Shown piece by piece: positions 42,138 through 51,618 of a DNA stretch of 64,000 nt (positions are counted from its first letter, which is position 1; the number at the start of each line of letters is the position of its first letter). Below the pieces are notes generated by a model. The model was not told the DNA's origin. It searched no databases and saw nothing but the letters and a program-made list of their open reading frames with translations. Both the position numbers and the translations under genes were made by a program. This DNA is from Nitrososphaerota archaeon (lineage in GTDB: Archaea > Thermoproteota > Nitrososphaeria > Nitrososphaerales > Gagatemarchaeaceae): positions 1,085,374 to 1,149,373 of the forward strand of contig JAFLYY010000001.1 in NCBI GenBank assembly GCA_029785825.1, in the 5' to 3' direction.

Positions 42138-42881
42138 TTGCGATTTCCCGATAGAACGATTAGGTCGGTGAATGATCTGACATCTTACCTTGAAAGCGAT
42201 AGCAGGACGTTCTCAGGGCCGGTCTGGTATCGAGGCCAGTCTGATCTCCAGTGGAATTTGAAACCATCAATCTATAGGCTGAAGAAGAGCATAAACGAGA
42301 TGGACCTTCTGAAACGCTTCAAACTCAACGCCACTATGCTCCTTGATGGCCTCCCAGACAGACCATACGAATGGCTTTTCGTTATGAGACATTATTCCGT
42401 CCCAACACGCCTCCTGGATTGGACGGAAAGTCCTCTAGTTGCAGCCTACTTCGCGGCGAGAAGACGAAGAAAGGCAGGGGCAATATGGGTCTTGTCTCCA
42501 ATAAGCCTGAATAAGCAGGAAGGTCGTTCGTTTACCAACATCGACACAAGCCTCCCTTCGTTCGGAGAAGACCCAGGAATCGTGAACCAATACGCACCTT
42601 CGAGTGAGTTTGAGACTCAACCGGGAGCACTCCCTCCCCTCGCAATTAGCGCCCCTCGAAACAATCAGCGCATGCAAGCTCAACTGGGCACCTACACTAT
42701 TCACCATCTTCGGAAGACACCTATTGAAAGAGTGGGGGACGCTACGCACGTATGGCGTTTTATAATTCCAGGATCGTACAAGAAGAAAATAATGAAAGAG
42801 CTTCGGACTCTTGGGATAACGCAATTCCAGATGTTCCCCGAGTTAGAGAGTATCGGAAGGGCGATAGCAGAAGAGGTCTAG
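42138..42881 (+). CDS. FRG-domain protein
   Basis: A 247-residue protein with the FRG signature WYRGQ at 30-34, then KPSIYR, and the second conserved block RHYSVPTRLLDWTESPLV near 84-101. FRG domains occur in bacterial and archaeal accessory genes; the activity is not established. TTG 42138 is about 30 nt after CTATAAAT. Two codons after the stop the DUF262 gene begins, so the two form an operon. Position in a low-G+C island suggests a defence role. Confidence 0.8.
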   Translation: MRFPDRTIRSVNDLTSYLESDSRTFSGPVWYRGQSDLQWNLKPSIYRLKKSINEMDLLKRFKLNATMLLDGLPDRPYEWLFVMRHYSVPTRLLDWTESPLVAAYFAARRRRKAGAIWVLSPISLNKQEGRSFTNIDTSLPSFGEDPGIVNQYAPSSEFETQPGALPPLAISAPRNNQRMQAQLGTYTIHHLRKTPIERVGDATHVWRFIIPGSYKKKIMKELRTLGITQFQMFPELESIGRAIAEEV

Positions 42882-42883
42882 AA

Positions 42884-43972
42884 TTGGCTCATCTGAAGAT
42901 ATACCCAATGGGAAACTCCGCCATCCTGACTATCAACTACCTACGTAATTCAATCGATGTCAGCCCACCATACCAACGAAATAGTGACATCTGGACCCGC
43001 GAGAAGAGACAGTTGCTGATTGACTCGATTTTGAACAATTTCGACGTCCCAAAGATATACTTCCACTTGCTCAGCAAGCCCCGCATCCTTGCCTCTGGCA
43101 AGGCGGCTTCATACGCCATAATTGATGGTAAACAGCGACTGGAGTCGATTTGGAAATTCCTTGATGGAGAATTTCCTCTAGCCAGTGACTTCAAGTTCAG
43201 GTCGAACCCCTCGCTCAAGGTCAAGGGGATGTCTTACGCCAAGATGTCCTTGAAGTACCCAGAACTGAAAGTCGCCTTTGACGGTTTCAATCTTCCTGTT
43301 TGGATAGTCGACACCGACGACGTCGAGCTCATAGAAGAGATGTTTTCAAGGCTTAACGAAGCAGTGCCTCTAAGCTCTGCTGAGAAGCGTAACGCCCTGG
43401 GGGGCGTCATGGTCAAAGCAATAAAGAAAGTCTCCACTCACAGGTTCTTTGAACGGAAAGTCAGGATTACCAACAGAAGATATCAACACTTGGAGGTTGC
43501 CATTAGGCTTCTCTTTCTCGAGTATACCATTCAGAGACGTAACAAGGTCATAGACACCAAGAAGTTATACCTCGACCAGTTTGTCAAGTCGTATAAGGGA
43601 AAAGTCAGGAGGCCGCGTTCAACTGATTTGGTGAGAGACGTGACGAAAATCTTGGATGTGATGCTTGACTACTTTACAACCAGAGATAGGCTCTTAAGAT
43701 CCCAGGCTGACGTTCCAATCTACTACCTCCTATTCAGGTACGCACTAAAACAGAAAAGGCTCGGGAAGCTCAGCAGGAAGGGCTTGCTCCGCTTCGAGAC
43801 ACTCGTAGCGGAGAACCGAGAGCTTGCAGAATCAGACATTACCAAGGCAGATTTCGACTTGCTGGAATTCGACCGAATGTCAATCCAAGGGACCAACGAT
43901 GCGAGCTCAATCAAGGAACGCCTGAGAATCATGGCTGAGTACTTCCGTCTCAAACGAATATACATCAAGTAG
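42884..43972 (+). CDS. DUF262 (ParB/Srx-like fold) protein
   Basis: About 362 residues. PPYQR at 28-32 and IDGKQRL near 80-86 are the two hallmark motifs of DUF262, a ParB-like NTP-binding or nuclease domain found in GmrSD-type modification-dependent restriction enzymes and many defence loci. No HNH (DUF1524) domain follows; the C-terminal half is helical and basic. TTG 42884, preceded by GAGGT, directly follows the FRG gene. The longer frame from 42752 overlaps FRG and is rejected. Confidence 0.82.
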   Translation: MAHLKIYPMGNSAILTINYLRNSIDVSPPYQRNSDIWTREKRQLLIDSILNNFDVPKIYFHLLSKPRILASGKAASYAIIDGKQRLESIWKFLDGEFPLASDFKFRSNPSLKVKGMSYAKMSLKYPELKVAFDGFNLPVWIVDTDDVELIEEMFSRLNEAVPLSSAEKRNALGGVMVKAIKKVSTHRFFERKVRITNRRYQHLEVAIRLLFLEYTIQRRNKVIDTKKLYLDQFVKSYKGKVRRPRSTDLVRDVTKILDVMLDYFTTRDRLLRSQADVPIYYLLFRYALKQKRLGKLSRKGLLRFETLVAENRELAESDITKADFDLLEFDRMSIQGTNDASSIKERLRIMAEYFRLKRIYIK

Positions 43973-44465: not shown

Positions 44466-44591
44466 CGGTCGACTTGCTTTAGGGATTGTGCTACCAAACT
44501 GTATTGCCTTTGGCGTGAAATAGGCTATGCTTCAGTAGCCGAGTCATGGTCTCATACCCACTTTAAAAATCAGCCACGTAGCGATTCGGTG

Positions 44592-45455
44592 ATGAAAGAC
44601 CCCGAAGGTGGTTCCAGAGTCCCGTTCTTCTGGCGGACCCCCAGATTGCTACTGATTATGCTGATTTCTCCTCTACTAACTACCGCAGCCGGTTCTCTTT
44701 TGTTGTTAGGAATCGGGAAAGGAGGCGGTCTAGTGTCATTTTATGCGGCAGTCGTAGTCTTGCTCGGCGAGCCTTTGGCGGAGGGGATCCTGCTCTTGCG
44801 TTCTGCTAGCAGTGTACAGGTCGAGATTGGCGAGAAAATTGCCTCGGATCTCCTTCATAGGCTGGGAAGGTTGAGTGGTATGAAATTGGGGGTTATCCTA
44901 ATGGCGATAGCGATGATCCTGCTCGTTGTCATCCCTGAGGATGCGGCAATAGTCTCGAGTTCGACGGCCTCGGCGAATGCATACGCCGTCTCAATCTTCT
45001 ATGTAGGAGGCCTCCTATTGATTGTCATGCCTTTCATGATTTGGAGCCCAAAGCACTGGTTCTTGCTTAGGGTGAACTTGTCCGGAGTGGTCGATGAGAC
45101 CGTGAATGTGAGGACAGCACTAAAAGACGCCGTAGAAGCATTCAGTAGCTCCCTTTGGGCTTTGAGGGGGAGCAGAATCTCTAACGCGGCAATCGTCCGA
45201 CTTGAACTCATTCCCCGAAACGACATTCGTGGCTTGGCACTGAAGCTACAGTACGCGGCGAAGAAAGAGGACTCGGAGTCATTCGTAAGCACTATCGCTT
45301 CTGCGACTGCCTTGAATCCAAATCAAGTCTTGGAACGAATGACTTGGCAAGACTATGCGGATCAAGTGGCGAAACTGACGCCCTTCGTCGTCGCGGTTGT
45401 TGCTTTCGTAGTAGTTCTGATAGAATTTCCGCACTACATTCCGTCTGTCGGTTAA
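44592..45455 (+). CDS. Uncharacterised multi-helix membrane protein
   Basis: About 287 residues. Hydrophobic segments occur near 18-40, 45-68, 95-115, 128-150 and 260-282, with a soluble stretch of about 100 residues between the fourth and fifth. No known motif is visible. ATG 44592 lies about 25 nt after CTTTAAAAA, indicating a leaderless transcript. Convergent with the next membrane protein gene; both may be island effectors. Confidence 0.6.
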   Translation: MKDPEGGSRVPFFWRTPRLLLIMLISPLLTTAAGSLLLLGIGKGGGLVSFYAAVVVLLGEPLAEGILLLRSASSVQVEIGEKIASDLLHRLGRLSGMKLGVILMAIAMILLVVIPEDAAIVSSSTASANAYAVSIFYVGGLLLIVMPFMIWSPKHWFLLRVNLSGVVDETVNVRTALKDAVEAFSSSLWALRGSRISNAAIVRLELIPRNDIRGLALKLQYAAKKEDSESFVSTIASATALNPNQVLERMTWQDYADQVAKLTPFVVAVVAFVVVLIEFPHYIPSVG

Positions 45456-45467
45456 CACCTCAAGGAT

Positions 45468-46211
45468 TCAGCCTTCCGTCCGGAATACCATAGGAACCTC
45501 AGCATACTGATTTGATTCGAACCCTGCCTGGATAGACCCCTCATAGAGTCTCCCTTCAGCGTCGTTCGCTTTGATATGCACTGCCAGATTTTGGAGGCCG
45601 CGGAAGCCACCAGTGTTTCCGCAGTTGTACTCGATATGCTGATTCCTGGCTAACTCCAAGGGTTTCATCACCATCCATTCCTCTCGGAACCTATACGAGA
45701 CCTCAATGCTGGCATTACCCCCTACATTCCATGCCACCAAATAGTAATCCCTCCAGAATACCTTCGTCTGGCGTGACCTGACATTTACCAAGAACTTCGG
45801 GCGGAGGAGAGCCACGTGTTCGGCCTTGTCTCTCTCCTGTAGGAGCAGGAGTTCCTCGGTCTTTCCAGCCATGCTCGCCATATGCCGCTCTATCTTGGAG
45901 AGGCTCTCTACAGATTTGACGGTGGCTTCAGAGACAGCCTTTAGTTCCCTGGTCACTGATTCCAGCGTTCGGACGAACGCTTCGATTTGCCGTTCGGTGC
46001 TCCTTTGCAACTCCCTGTTGCTCGTCACCATGATGAGATATAGGGCAAGGATCGTCATCGTGGTTGTGCCCAAGGTGAGCAGGAGGAAGCTGGGCCAGAG
46101 AGGGCTTGTAATTCCGAACACGAGAAGAGCGAGGGCGTACAAACACCAAGCTCTCTTCAGCGTCACTTTCTGACGCAGTGCCTCCGCAATACGTTTCGGC
46201 ACCCCTTCCAA
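45468..46211 (-). CDS. Membrane protein with coiled coil and beta domain
   Basis: A 247-residue protein: two hydrophobic helices (about 20-38 and 42-65), then a long heptad-like helix (about 68-130, rich in Glu, Ser and Leu), then a beta-rich C-terminal part. It resembles a membrane-tethered sensor or scaffold. Starts at TTG 46211 about 30 nt after CTTAAACC. No family recognised. Confidence 0.6.
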   Translation of the reverse strand: MEGVPKRIAEALRQKVTLKRAWCLYALALLVFGITSPLWPSFLLLTLGTTTMTILALYLIMVTSNRELQRSTERQIEAFVRTLESVTRELKAVSEATVKSVESLSKIERHMASMAGKTEELLLLQERDKAEHVALLRPKFLVNVRSRQTKVFWRDYYLVAWNVGGNASIEVSYRFREEWMVMKPLELARNQHIEYNCGNTGGFRGLQNLAVHIKANDAEGRLYEGSIQAGFESNQYAEVPMVFRTEG

Positions 46212-46289: not shown

Positions 46290-46886
46290 TTAGTCGACCT
46301 TCCTGGTCCTGCTGTTGTGCCCCCTAGCCTCGAGAATCCTGTAGTACAGGTATTCATCATTGACCAGCCTAGAACGTACAGCCCCAGCAACGAAGTCCGC
46401 TGCTTGGACACACCTATCGGACGAAGAATCCTGCTGCCTCACGGACCTGATTTTCACTGCTTCAGATTCGAACGCCTGCATTCGTGCCTTGAAATCCTCG
46501 AACAATTGTCTTCTTGCCCCTGCATCCCAAACGAATTGGAGCGTGTTGGAATCGCTCACGTTGGGGATTGTTGATGCGATAATCTCTCTGGCTGAAGTTT
46601 GAAGAATCCTCTCTAAAGGGTCGACAACATTCCTGTCACTATGATAGAAAACCGATCCAGTGAAGAGTGCCTTTTCAACGATTATGTTCAGGACCCGGGT
46701 CTTGGTCTCCTTTGTTGAGTTGGCGAACTTCAATTCGGCCGAGGACCTGCCTAGATCACGAGCCACGGTGTCCAACTTCGTACTAAGGGCCGCGACCAAT
46801 CCTGATTGAATTGCAAGGAATCCGACCACGACCTTCGGTGGCCTTAGGTCTCCTGATTCATCGATGAATATCTGCCAATGAACCAT
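46290..46886 (-). CDS. DUF3800-family protein
   Basis: A 198-residue protein. WQIFIDESGD at residues 4-13 supplies the first conserved acidic pair, and CVQAADFVAGAV near 160-171 the late Asp; this is the DUF3800 signature, thought to adopt an RNase H-like nuclease fold. It is the last gene in a three-gene operon, starting one base after its upstream neighbour. DUF3800 proteins recur in anti-phage systems. Confidence 0.82.
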   Translation of the reverse strand: MVHWQIFIDESGDLRPPKVVVGFLAIQSGLVAALSTKLDTVARDLGRSSAELKFANSTKETKTRVLNIIVEKALFTGSVFYHSDRNVVDPLERILQTSAREIIASTIPNVSDSNTLQFVWDAGARRQLFEDFKARMQAFESEAVKIRSVRQQDSSSDRCVQAADFVAGAVRSRLVNDEYLYYRILEARGHNSRTRKVD

Positions 46887-46887
46887 T

Positions 46888-47763
46888 TCATCTCACCTTG
46901 AACAAGAATTCCTCGCTCGAATATGCAGGTTGCACTTCGAACCCATCAGACCTCCGGGCGAGTGAGACAATTTGCTCGTGGGTAACATACGATGTGGGCA
47001 GTATTTTCTCGTTGATGAGATAGAGTGCCCCGATGGTGGAAGCGAACTCGATTCCTTTGAGAGAGACGAATGCGACGTTCAACCAATTGGCAAGAGTCGA
47101 TTCGGGGAGAGGCAGTGGGCGGCGGCCAGTAAAAGAAAACGCCATGGTAGAGAAGTAATCGACTGGCAATCTCTTGAACGAGTAAGAATGGAAAGCCTCT
47201 GCAAAGCCTCGTTTCTCCTGAGGTTTGAGCCCCAGTCCGTTGAGCAACCGCCATCTCGCACGTCCGTTGTGCAGAAGCGTCCTAGGACTGAGCTCCCTTG
47301 GAACGGGTGGCTCAATGAGTCTAAGGTCGTCTCCCGCGTGTTGCCACATCTCTTCCCAAGCTCGTGCAGAGCTATCGCCGATTTCCTTTGTCTGCACAAT
47401 GCTGTACCTTGAGATTCCTCTCAAGAATGGTACTAGGAAAGACCTGTCTCTTTGGAGCAGCAGGGCCAAAGTTGTGTATAACGGAGGTCCCTTTTCATCT
47501 TGCCACAGTCTTAGAAACGCCCGTCCTGCTCCAACTGATATCGTCCAATTCTCTTCTATCAGACCAAGTTCCCTTGCTAGACTGAAGTGAGGTTCAGGTG
47601 CTCTCCTTCCTCCAGGGGGTGAACTTGATGCTCTGAATAGTTCCCAAGCATAGTCCTTGTTTCCTGGACTTTTTGAGACGGCCTCTATCGCAGTGTGAAG
47701 CTTTGAGAGATTTCCCGCCGTTTCGATGATATAACGCATAAAGGCGACAGTCATGCCTTCCAC
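46888..47763 (-). CDS. Uncharacterised middle protein of AAA-DUF3800 operon
   Basis: A 291-residue protein without a motif I recognise. Helix-rich parts near residues 40-75 (LARELGLIEENWTISVGAGRAFL) look like a winged helix, and more such segments may follow. It begins at GTG 47763, 2 nt after the ATPase gene stops, and ends one base before the DUF3800 start. The strict packing implies a complex or pathway with both partners, perhaps as DNA-binding or specificity subunit. Confidence 0.6.
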   Translation of the reverse strand: MEGMTVAFMRYIIETAGNLSKLHTAIEAVSKSPGNKDYAWELFRASSSPPGGRRAPEPHFSLARELGLIEENWTISVGAGRAFLRLWQDEKGPPLYTTLALLLQRDRSFLVPFLRGISRYSIVQTKEIGDSSARAWEEMWQHAGDDLRLIEPPVPRELSPRTLLHNGRARWRLLNGLGLKPQEKRGFAEAFHSYSFKRLPVDYFSTMAFSFTGRRPLPLPESTLANWLNVAFVSLKGIEFASTIGALYLINEKILPTSYVTHEQIVSLARRSDGFEVQPAYSSEEFLFKVR

Positions 47764-47765
47764 GG

Positions 47766-48896
47766 TCAGATAGACTTCTTTACAAGAACAGAATCGAGTA
47801 CCGGTGCTTGGTCAAGAATGGCGACAGACATTACATTATCCATCAGCTCCATCGCTTCCTTGGGTCTAAGTGCAACAGTTAGACCCTGGTCTTTGAGCAG
47901 CTTGACCTTATTGATTATGAGTGAAATTGCCTCCTCCGAGAACGGATAACTTGCAGCCGTAATCGAATCCTTGGTCTTGGTTTTTGCCTTTAGGGCGGCT
48001 TCCTTTGCGTCGAAGTTCGACTCTCGCCGGTATCGAATCACTTCGTAGATGAATGAACCGAGCTCCTCCTCCGTGTACTCATCGAATGTGATGAAGTTAG
48101 TAGCTCCAATCCTTCTTCGAACTGTCTCATTAGTCAAGACATACGGAGCTTCCTCGATTGTCCTGCCAGTGAGTGCAAAGACCGTGCCCATTGGTCCGCC
48201 CTCTCCCACAAGGTCCCTGATTGCTTCAGTGAAGGAATTCAAGCTGTCTCCGACCAAGGGTCTTGTAAGTTCGAACTCGTCAATTAGCAGGATGACGGGT
48301 TTCCTGCGAAGTTCACGGTGCAGAGAGAATAGGCCCTGAAGCACAGACACCTGATCTTGTGGACCGAGTGGGTTATTCCAAACTTCCAGGTCGTCTTCCT
48401 CTGTTCTAGTAAGCTTCTCTCCGTTGAGGAACCTCCAAAGCATGTTCCAAGAACCAAGCCCTTTCTGGACCACGTTCGCCAAGTCCTTCCCAAGCGTCGA
48501 TTCAAGGCTCAGGTTTATTCCCTTGTGGTCTGCTGTCCAAGATTCCAGTCCTACACCGGCACTCTCGAGAGCTTCGTCGAGAAGTTGTTTCACCTTTTCG
48601 CGGCCGTACGCCGCAAGAATAGAGCGGTACAGTTCCAAGAAGGTGCTACGCCGGTGGAGAGGAGGGGTCTCGACGTACAAGCATGATGCGTCGTGTAGGT
48701 TGTATTCAATGAATCGAAGCAATTGTGTCTTACCGATTCCAAGAAGTCCATAGAAGACGTAGTGAGGGGATCGCTCAATGGCCAGCTTTCCCTTGATCAT
48801 CCTGACGTAGTCCTTCGCATTCGAACTTCTTACGAGAAAAACAGATCCGTCCTTCTTTGGGTCTAGAAGAAAGGAGTTCTTTTTGAGCCCGTACAA
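47766..48896 (-). CDS. AAA/STAND-like ATPase of defence operon
   Basis: A 376-residue P-loop ATPase. Walker A GLLGIGKTQ is at 50-58; Walker B ILLIDEFE is near 200-208, followed by a sensor 1-like FALTGRTIEE and an arginine-containing segment TVRRRIGA. The layout recalls Orc1/Cdc6-like archaeal ATPases. It heads the three-gene operon, starting at TTG 48896 behind a CCTTATAC promoter element and three 7-bp repeats. Confidence 0.82.
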   Translation of the reverse strand: MYGLKKNSFLLDPKKDGSVFLVRSSNAKDYVRMIKGKLAIERSPHYVFYGLLGIGKTQLLRFIEYNLHDASCLYVETPPLHRRSTFLELYRSILAAYGREKVKQLLDEALESAGVGLESWTADHKGINLSLESTLGKDLANVVQKGLGSWNMLWRFLNGEKLTRTEEDDLEVWNNPLGPQDQVSVLQGLFSLHRELRRKPVILLIDEFELTRPLVGDSLNSFTEAIRDLVGEGGPMGTVFALTGRTIEEAPYVLTNETVRRRIGATNFITFDEYTEEELGSFIYEVIRYRRESNFDAKEAALKAKTKTKDSITAASYPFSEEAISLIINKVKLLKDQGLTVALRPKEAMELMDNVMSVAILDQAPVLDSVLVKKSI

Positions 48897-48907
48897 TGCA
48901 TTGACCT

Positions 48908-48928
48908 ACGAACAACGAATGACGAACG
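48908..48928 (-). promoter_or_regulatory. Three 7-bp iterons in the AAA operon promoter
   Basis: ACGAACA, ACGAATG and ACGAACG follow one another without gaps (plus-strand reading), between the CCTTATAC box (about 48933-48940) and the start codon. A regulator could bind them cooperatively; the divergently encoded RHH protein at 49049 is a candidate. Confidence 0.5.
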
Positions 48929-49048: not shown

Positions 49049-49210
49049 TTGAGCGGGGACTTGGGGCAGAAGAAGGTCACATCAATCAAGGTTGACGAGG
49101 ATCTCTGGGGGGAGTTCAAAATTGAAGCAATACGGAGGAAGACCTCCGTGGCGGAGCTCCTTGACGACACAATTCGGAAGGAGCTTGGGAAGGAAGAGGA
49201 GTCGGCTTAA
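49049..49210 (+). CDS. RHH-domain regulator upstream of methyltransferase
   Basis: A 53-residue ribbon-helix-helix protein: strand KKVTSIKVDEDLW, helix 1 GEFKIEAIRR, turn KTS, helix 2 VAELLDDTIRKEL, then an acidic tail. It starts at TTG 49049 and its TAA overlaps the methyltransferase ATG (TAATG). It may control the restriction-modification genes, as C proteins do in bacterial systems, or the divergent AAA operon. Confidence 0.7.
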   Translation: MSGDLGQKKVTSIKVDEDLWGEFKIEAIRRKTSVAELLDDTIRKELGKEEESA

Positions 49211-50517
49211 TGACCGGCACGTCACAGGGACAGACTACCCTCACGGAGTCCTACGAGAAGGATTGGACGATGGCGAAGGAGAACGACCAGGAGGGCATCC
49301 ACAGTATTCACATCTATCCCGCCCGAATGGTCCCCCAGGTGATTAGAGATCTAATCAAACTCTACGGTCAAACGGGCGAACCGCTTGGCGATTTCTACGT
49401 CGGGTCGGGGACAGTGGGGGTCGAAGCTCTCAAGCTCGGCTATGACGTGGTACTGTCAGATATCAACCCACTCGCACAACTTCTCACGCGTGTAAAGTGT
49501 CACTATATCGAACCACCCAGGCTTGAAAGCGTCCTCGAGAGGATTAGGAAGAACTTTGAAATCGCGAAAGTGACGGAGGAAGAAGTCGCACGGGTCAAGG
49601 AGGAGATTCCCAATGTCGACTATTGGTTCAAGCCAAATGTAATCAAAGACCTGTACGCTTTAAGGCGAGAAGTTTTTGCGACCCGTGACGAAGAGATCCG
49701 CGACTTCTTCAAGGTCTGTTTTTCATTGACTGTCAGGAAAGCGAGTAATATCAGAACAAGAGAGTTCAAGCTCTACAGGCGATCAGACAAGAATCTTAGG
49801 ACCTATGCCCCCAATGTCCAGAAGATTTTCATTGCGTCCGCCTCGAGGGCCATTCGCGGAATGCCCTCAATCAAGGGCATCAGAGGAAAAGCGACCATTC
49901 TGAAAGAAGACGCGAGGCACACGGGACTAATGCCGGGCTCACTGGGGACAATTGTCACGAGCCCCCCATATGGTGATAGCTCGACCACTGTTGCCTACGG
50001 GCAGTTCTCGAAGTATCCCCTTCTGTGGTTAGGATATGACGTCGACAAAGTGAAGGACATTGACAAGGTCTCTCTTGGAGGCAAAACCAGCGGTGACGGA
50101 GACGTGGCAAATGTCCTGAGCAAATCACCCTCGCTTACAGAGGTGAAAGAGAGGGTGGGGGCCCGTGACCTTGAAAGAAGCGTGGTTCTAACGCGATTCT
50201 TCAGGGACTACGACGATGGCCTGAAGGAGATGCGGAGAGTGCTGAAAGATGAGAGGAAGTGTGTGATCATCATAGGCAACAGAACCATGCGTGGGGTGAA
50301 GATACCCACGATTCAAATAACTAGGGAATTGGCCGAAGCTGGCTGGACAATCAACGGGAAGCCTAAGAAGTTCGAGTGCCTGGAAATCAGAGAAAGAACC
50401 ATCTATCAGAAACGGATGCCTTATGTTGGAACACCCCAAGGTAGGAAAGATGCAAAGTTATGGGAGCCTTGCGACCTGATAATGAATGAAGCGATTATCG
50501 TCCTAAGGTCAATCTAA
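49210..50517 (+). CDS. DNA methyltransferase (N4-cytosine or N6-adenine type)
   Basis: A 435-residue amino-methyltransferase. The SAM-binding motif FYVGSGTVGVEAL lies near 62-74 and the catalytic TSPPYGD near 249-255; the order motif I before motif IV is that of the gamma/alpha-like group. The N-terminal SIHIYPARM segment is typical of SPPY-type site-specific enzymes. Its 3' end overlaps the convergent endonuclease gene by 23 bp, so this is a restriction-modification pair. Confidence 0.88.
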   Translation: MTGTSQGQTTLTESYEKDWTMAKENDQEGIHSIHIYPARMVPQVIRDLIKLYGQTGEPLGDFYVGSGTVGVEALKLGYDVVLSDINPLAQLLTRVKCHYIEPPRLESVLERIRKNFEIAKVTEEEVARVKEEIPNVDYWFKPNVIKDLYALRREVFATRDEEIRDFFKVCFSLTVRKASNIRTREFKLYRRSDKNLRTYAPNVQKIFIASASRAIRGMPSIKGIRGKATILKEDARHTGLMPGSLGTIVTSPPYGDSSTTVAYGQFSKYPLLWLGYDVDKVKDIDKVSLGGKTSGDGDVANVLSKSPSLTEVKERVGARDLERSVVLTRFFRDYDDGLKEMRRVLKDERKCVIIIGNRTMRGVKIPTIQITRELAEAGWTINGKPKKFECLEIRERTIYQKRMPYVGTPQGRKDAKLWEPCDLIMNEAIIVLRSI

Positions 50518-51391
50518 CGCCTTCTTGCTTGAAGTCCCCGAGATCACTCGGAAGATCTGAGAGCTTCCTTACCCATGGCATAGGATTTAGTGCGTCTGTC
50601 TCCTTGACATCGTCTCTGACGTAAACAATGAGATTGTGCTTCTTGAGCCTATTAGCCTTCTTCTCGCCGAGTCTCTTGTCGATTGTCAGAATGTATCCTC
50701 TTCTACCTCCGGAGGCGATTCCGACGTTCGCCCACCACCTCTCGGCGAGAGTATGTTGGCAGGCCATGAAAATCGCTTTGTCCGGAGTGGCTCTAGCTGT
50801 CTTGACATCGGGGACCACCAGATCAGTGTGACCAAGTTCTGCCTCCACCTCCCCTTTGGCCCTTTGGCACGGGATATCGATTCGGTTAAGGAGCCTAAGA
50901 ACGATTTCCTGGAAGGACTCTCCCGCTCGTTTCTTTCGCATCTGTACAACAGTAGTTTGGAACTGCCTGATTAGAGGGAAGGAGTCCCTGACCACTTCTC
51001 TTACGACATCCTTGAGGGTGTTTGAAAGCGACCCTTCTCCATCGATAGCCCCGACGAGGGCAGCTCTGTGCATCTTCTGGATTTGCGACCCGTAAGCGTC
51101 CATCCAGGCGACAACAAGTTCAGGAAAAGCTTTCGCTTCTGACTCCATGAAGCTAGCGTAATTTGCCTCCTCGACATCTAGGATGGCTCTGCAAAAGTTT
51201 CTACTCACGAAACTGTTTGTCAGCTTGTCATCCAGTTCGTTGAAGGCAGCGTCTAGCATCTTTGGCCACGGAGGGAAGGAGGCTTTCGCCTTCGCCAAAA
51301 TCTGAACCTCGGTCGCCTTCAAACATCCATGGGGGAGTCCAATTTGCTTTTGAACCCTTGCTACTTGACTGAACAGAACCCTTGATTCCAA
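50495..51391 (-). CDS. Putative type II restriction endonuclease (PD-(D/E)xK-like)
   Basis: A 298-residue protein. The segment GESFQEIVLRLL, then GHTDLVVPDVKTA around residues 155-195 fits the Glu and Asp-x-x-x-x-Lys core of a PD-(D/E)xK nuclease. The N-terminal half is helical. Convergent and overlapping with a DNA methyltransferase gene, which is the strongest argument for its function. Start TTG 51391. Recognition sequence unknown. Confidence 0.72.
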   Translation of the reverse strand: MESRVLFSQVARVQKQIGLPHGCLKATEVQILAKAKASFPPWPKMLDAAFNELDDKLTNSFVSRNFCRAILDVEEANYASFMESEAKAFPELVVAWMDAYGSQIQKMHRAALVGAIDGEGSLSNTLKDVVREVVRDSFPLIRQFQTTVVQMRKKRAGESFQEIVLRLLNRIDIPCQRAKGEVEAELGHTDLVVPDVKTARATPDKAIFMACQHTLAERWWANVGIASGGRRGYILTIDKRLGEKKANRLKKHNLIVYVRDDVKETDALNPMPWVRKLSDLPSDLGDFKQEGVRLTLGR

Positions 51392-51545: not shown

Positions 51546-51618
51546 TAGCCCGGCTAGGATTCGAACCTAGGTCGAAGGCTCCAGAGGCCCCCATCCTTGA
51601 CCACTAGACGACCGGGCT
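51546..51618 (-). tRNA. tRNA-Gln (anticodon CTG)
   Basis: A 73-nt cloverleaf with AGCCCGG/CCGGGCT acceptor and A73. Anticodon stem GGGGC/GCCTT encloses CTCTGGA with CTG at 34-36, decoding CAG. T arm CTAGG-TTCGAAT-CCTAG. No intron. It marks the right border of the low-G+C island. Confidence 0.92.

Follow-up and report, generated by a model that had tools for sequence, protein, structure and literature searches.

Do three tightly packed genes in an archaeal chromosome form a dedicated defence system, and which of them would constitute its core? The genes lie in a 64,000-nt stretch of DNA from a Nitrososphaerota archaeon (GCA_029785825.1, contig JAFLYY010000001.1, positions 1,085,374 to 1,149,373 of the forward strand), hereafter the window, whose numbering is used for all coordinates (Table 1). 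The original prediction described them as an operon for a P-loop ATPase, a middle protein without a known family and a protein of DUF3800, plausibly acting as sensor, adapter and nuclease, respectively.

Organization of the operon and properties of its products

All three genes are read from the minus strand, the ATPase and middle genes lying 2 nt apart and the middle and DUF3800 genes 1 nt apart, in agreement with the predicted spacing of 1-2 nt; the operon end, formerly placed at 48928, lies beyond an in-frame TAG (48908-48906) located upstream of the ATPase start, and the boundary was therefore moved to 48896. Each of the two upstream ORFs is matched over its full length by homologues in two further archaeal genomes, namely G338, which belongs to the same genus as the window genome, and G246 (Candidatus Culexmicrobium profundum). 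Since the order of the genes is kept in these genomes, and third codon positions are the least conserved in both the ATPase and the middle gene (0.25-0.36, vs 0.51-0.67 for second positions), the operon is beyond chance: the trio is a real, rare and conserved operon.

Table 1. Position of the operon, its neighbours and the island border in the window.
Feature	Position	Strand	Description
ATPase gene	47766..48896	-	376 aa, TTG start
Middle gene	46888..47763	-	291 aa, GTG start
DUF3800 gene	46290..46886	-	198 aa, ATG start
Ribbon-helix-helix-like regulator	49049..49210	+	53 aa; between two divergent units (trio, methyltransferase)
Type II DNA methyltransferase	49210..50517	+	PADLOC MTase_II 1.1e-93, PF01555 9.5e-11; divergent to trio
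EcoRII-C-type restriction nuclease	50495..51391	-	PF09019 6e-7; convergent with methyltransferase
tRNA-Gln(CTG)	51546..51618	-	right border of variable island
DUF262/GmrSD_N protein	42752-43972		PADLOC NsnA E=5.8e-26

The first product matched Pfam AAA_22 (2e-6) and contains the Walker A (GLLGIGKT, residues 50-57) and Walker B (ILLIDEFE, residues 202-209) motifs expected of a P-loop ATPase; the residues of both motifs are invariant across the six ATPases compared, together with R262, a candidate arginine finger. The Pfam search returned no match of the window ATPase itself to BrxC_BrxD (PF10923), a family matched by its G338 homologue at 3.3e-8 (33.3 bits, cut-off 22.2), which also matched the PADLOC model of BrxD (2.2e-8). 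Weak matches to the Orc1/Cdc6 model were obtained for the ATPases of Culexmicrobium and G338, the latter scoring better against BrxD. Judged by these sequence comparisons, the first gene product is read as a BrxD-like ORC/Cdc6-type AAA+ ATPase. In the literature, BrxD counts among the ORC/Cdc6 AAA+ ATPases; it is tightly linked to the helicase BrxHI, which it has been suggested to load or activate (PMC12839542). Thus, of the "ATPase sensor" originally proposed, the AAA+ ATPase stands, and the BrxD relationship indicates that it would be better read as an ORC/Cdc6-type loader than as a sensor.

The middle protein had been described as lacking a known family, and indeed it displayed no Pfam match and obtained no convincing name from NCBIfam, PADLOC or PHROGs. 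In the AlphaFold model, built from three sequences (pLDDT 45), the only confident part corresponds to a predicted C-terminal winged helix (residues about 215-290). The PDB search with the model placed this part near DNA binders of the winged-helix type, forkhead, ORC1 and Fur among them, with no match at E<=0.001. By sequence, this protein belongs to a new family and the predicted partner of the ATPase, and its adapter role is a proposal drawn from gene position only.

The third protein belongs to Pfam DUF3800 (PF12686, E=1.2e-8, 36.2 bits vs a cut-off of 21), with the IDESGD motif at residues 8-13, and its acidic residues D9, E10, D13, E51 and D164 do not vary across three relatives. The best PDB matches of its model (pLDDT 56) were RNase H3/H2 (probability 0.91-1.00, TM 0.38-0.44, none at E<=0.001), with RNase HI also among them, and the DUF3800 family has been described as RNase H-fold nucleases found in CRISPR loci (PMC10910872, PMC12669027). 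The RNase H-like fold originally suggested is consistent with these matches, and the protein is a predicted RNase H-fold nuclease and candidate effector. Relatives of this protein in G004, G235 and G193 are located in other gene contexts, therefore DUF3800 is not specific to the trio operon. The G193 context (L039, 4022-7606), in which a large Eco57I-type methylase is followed by the DUF3800 gene and a 188-aa gene, is another case of a DUF3800 gene adjoining a restriction-modification enzyme.

The ATPase-middle pair and the variable third position

The search for homologues of the middle protein covered 398 sampled genomes of the phylum and later a broader set from the class. Outside the window, two genomes of the 398-genome sample had clear homologues, G338 (7.6e-32) and Culexmicrobium (1.1e-35), with the ATPase gene directly upstream of the middle gene in both; in G338 the two genes overlap by 4 nt. 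Identity among the copies of the pair ranges from 39 to 41% for the ATPase and from 30 to 34% for the middle protein. A trio unique to one genome had been set beforehand as evidence against a dedicated system; the pair recurs in these two other archaea. Weaker matches (E 0.001-0.01) were found in G392, G107 and G171, two of them with internal stops, and the wider class sample yielded G660, where a remnant of the middle gene extends across the ends of two contigs with no accompanying ATPase, and looks either decayed or broken by assembly errors. The co-occurrence evidence is thin, as just two intact copies of the pair were found beyond the window, one of them on a 4.3-kb contig. IMG/VR yielded no further copies, either in degenerate-pattern scans with the alignments of the ATPase and the middle protein or in a pattern scan with the DUF3800 protein, and equivalent scans of genome contigs retrieved only Culexmicrobium with the ATPase alignment and none with the middle protein, all these scans being of low sensitivity for distant relatives. 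Likewise, tblastn searches of plasmids with the window ATPase, the window and G338 middle proteins, and the window DUF3800 protein produced no further copies.

The gene in third position differs among loci. In Culexmicrobium, it is DUF3800-like and truncated: its start lies no more than 7 nt from the middle gene, and the contig ends inside it; the 100-aa fragment displayed no Pfam match, it contains VDASG and ELK motifs, and it scored 12.3 bits against a three-sequence DUF3800 profile, the best of 5000 shuffles reaching 9.7. In G338, the third gene is located 44 nt downstream of the middle gene and encodes a TFIIB repeat (4.1e-8), and it is followed by genes for a GHKL-like protein (a reading of the sequence to which Pfam gives no support), an unknown protein, and a UvrD helicase with a PD-(D/E)XK domain (PDDEXK_1). 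This run is part of an island (L007, 7492-17346; L072, 836-5495) in which two C5 methyltransferases, a Vsr-like nuclease and an HTH regulator occur with it within about 14 kb. In G660, too, a TFIIB-like gene comes after the middle-gene remnant; it is a homologue of the G338 gene (2e-10), and behind it lies a frameshifted gene for an EcoRII-C-like nuclease sharing 43% identity over 69 aa with the nuclease of the window; in this locus (L021, 7263-9709), the end of the middle gene, the TFIIB-like gene and the EcoRII-C-like nuclease occur together with a Vsr-type nuclease.

From these few examples, the variation of the third gene leads us to consider the ATPase-middle pair as the constant part of the locus. 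Therefore, of the ATPase, adapter and nuclease unit originally envisaged, the first two components hold as a pair, and the trio is not the fixed unit. On this basis we propose, tentatively and with somewhat more doubt than belief, a new archaeal defence family comprising a fixed BrxD-like ATPase and winged-helix partner, with a third slot occupied by either a DUF3800 nuclease or a TFIIB-like factor/GHKL-like ATPase/helicase-nuclease set, in which case immunity would have recruited a basal-transcription protein, the TFIIB-like factor.

The island at tRNA-Gln and the neighbouring restriction-modification genes

As originally described, the trio resides in a low-G+C island at a tRNA beside restriction-modification genes. 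From about 41 to 52 kb of the window the GC content is only 48-56%, the surroundings displaying about 60-65%, and this island of roughly 11 kb is located at the 3' end of tRNA-Gln. Synteny on the right side with seven congeners stops no further than about 60 bp from the tRNA 3' end; on the left, the flank of G419 matches the window up to 39889, and about 1.9 kb separate the same two flanks in that genome. The stretches of the seven congeners at tRNA-Gln contain other DNA instead, and no protein of the trio, nor the methyltransferase or the nuclease, was found in them. An att-like repeat of the tRNA end was searched for and not found. Upstream of the trio in window order, an FRG-domain protein (PADLOC PDC-S15, 1.5e-46) is followed by a DUF262/GmrSD_N protein; together (42138-43972) they make a further candidate defence pair within this island, and two predicted membrane proteins of no clear family (44589-46211) are located between the DUF262 gene and the trio.

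The insertion of the island at a tRNA, along with the weak Orc1/Cdc6 matches of the Culexmicrobium and G338 ATPases, would fit a set of replication or partition genes of an integrated element, with an ORC/Cdc6-like initiator, a winged-helix DNA binder and an accessory nuclease; archaeal mobile elements can also carry TFIIB-like genes. Nevertheless, the island genes examined included no recognisable integrase, capsid or relaxase, the neighbours are restriction-modification, FRG and DUF262 genes, and the G338 ATPase is closer to BrxD than to Orc1, all of which make this origin of the trio highly improbable.

On the other side of the trio, the stop codon of a small regulator gene overlaps the start of the methyltransferase gene (TAATG); the Pfam matches of this regulator are weak and all below cut-off (Omega_Repress 0.0048, RHH_4 0.016, RHH_1 0.02). 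The methyltransferase and the EcoRII-C-type nuclease are regarded here as associates of the trio and only possibly as parts of it. The G338 ATPase has a C5 methyltransferase divergent to it, arranged as in the window, so that a divergent methyltransferase is present at both same-genus loci (2/2). Such a recurrent neighbour, and the presence in G660 of an EcoRII-C-like nuclease behind the middle-gene remnant and the TFIIB-like gene, would be expected if the trio were an accessory of the type II restriction-modification system, in which the ATPase and its partner, with the DUF3800 protein, act on the methyltransferase or on the EcoRII-C nuclease as an ATP-dependent restriction complex. We consider this unlikely: the methyltransferases of the two same-genus loci are of unrelated classes (N6/N4 in the window and C5 in G338), no methyltransferase is encoded in the approximately 1.9 kb sequenced upstream of the Culexmicrobium ATPase, and homologues of the window methyltransferase and nuclease stand together in G390 with no trio. 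Because it stands alone in that genome, the restriction-modification pair is probably self-sufficient and may be a mere neighbour.

The lack of a methyltransferase in the short Culexmicrobium flank could also point to an independent anti-phage cassette that merely shares the island with the restriction-modification genes and discriminates self from non-self by means other than methylation, and defence genes do cluster in such islands, here with the FRG and DUF262 genes as further examples. To this view we also assign a low probability, as the divergent methyltransferase occurs at both same-genus loci in genomes where the tally of such enzymes is only 1-2 C5 and 1-2 N6/N4 matches each, an incomplete count based on two Pfam families that, with the threshold applied, failed to pick up the methyltransferase of the window itself.

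Because the pair recurs in two other archaea with varying third genes, the trio looks like a rare, undescribed DNA-defence module. A role in defence, probably against viruses, is likely, judging from neighbourhood and homology; the fuller reading on the same grounds, i.e., a rare, restriction-like archaeal DNA-defence module with an interchangeable third-position protein, appears to us evenly poised between right and wrong. According to this reading, the ATPase and its winged-helix partner would assemble into an ATP-dependent complex, either recognising invading DNA or being loaded on it, and this complex would recruit the third-position protein, a loader idea borrowed from BrxD. In the window, the recruited protein would be the DUF3800 protein, a predicted RNase H-fold nuclease, cutting the nucleic acid of the invader; in the G338 version, the TFIIB-like factor, the GHKL-like ATPase and the UvrD-PD-(D/E)XK helicase-nuclease would take the third slot onward. 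By analogy with BREX and Dpd, where modification plays this part, host DNA may be labelled as self through methylation by the neighbouring enzyme.

Comparison with known defence systems

Menshen (NsnABC), which had been suggested for comparison, resembles the trio in being a multi-gene defence cassette; it was rejected, given that no Nsn model matches the trio proteins at E<=1, and the only NsnA match belongs to the separate DUF262 gene. In a scan of seven island proteins against the Mad1-8 set, the window ATPase displayed a weak match to mad8 (3.3e-4), which, along with the methyltransferase neighbour, recalls MADS; the other Mad components, in contrast, had no convincing match, mad2 being hit at 0.0026 via a generic methyltransferase, and membership in MADS was rejected on account of these weak matches. 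SngB of Shango is matched (7.5e-9) by a haloarchaeal relative of the ATPase from a Dpd locus, but not by the window ATPase, and the trio has no TerB-like or helicase partner. The accessory nucleases of type V-A2 and VI-F CRISPR loci are of the same DUF3800 family, described as having an RNase H fold (PMC10910872, PMC12669027), whereas no CRISPR-Cas gene was recognised beside the trio, and its DUF3800 protein lacks a TPR domain.

Further parallels involve the ATPase. Relatives of it occur next to a TGT enzyme and a partner of about 300 aa in G249, G490 and eight haloarchaeal plasmids, and the ATPase family of the window aligned to these archaeal Dpd-type ATPases with an hhalign probability of 99.2% (E=1.8e-19, 340 columns). 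The TGT enzyme, the partner and the BrxD-like ATPase form tight runs (L016, 6891-9990; L075, 2438-5534; L025-L032), found in two genomes of the window's phylum and in the eight haloarchaeal plasmids, with a gene order that differs between both groups; no description of this ATPase-partner pair of TGT loci was found in the literature searched. The trio thus shares with archaeal Dpd-type loci the homologous ATPases and the tight gene runs with a DNA-modification enzyme. Membership was nonetheless rejected: the TGT of L016, L075 and the haloarchaeal plasmids has no counterpart among the island ORFs or adjoining the pair in G338 and Culexmicrobium, and homology between the middle protein and the partner of about 300 aa was not detectable (hhalign E=0.075 and 0.11, short local matches). 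Regarding BREX type 2, BrxD and the BrxD-BrxHI dyad likewise present a standalone ORC/Cdc6-type AAA+ ATPase with a partner gene; the partner of the window ATPase is, however, not a helicase, and BREX membership was rejected by the absence of PglZ (PF08665), which gave no match at E<=0.001 in G000, G338 and G246, two control genomes being positive.

The three-gene version in the window is small enough for a direct test, and the alternation of a nuclease and a TFIIB-like factor at one position, if confirmed with more copies, would suggest that the pair is a general effector recruiter in archaea. ATPases of the ORC/Cdc6 type are a feature shared by BREX, archaeal Dpd-type loci and the window, with an adjoining DNA-modification enzyme and a separate partner.
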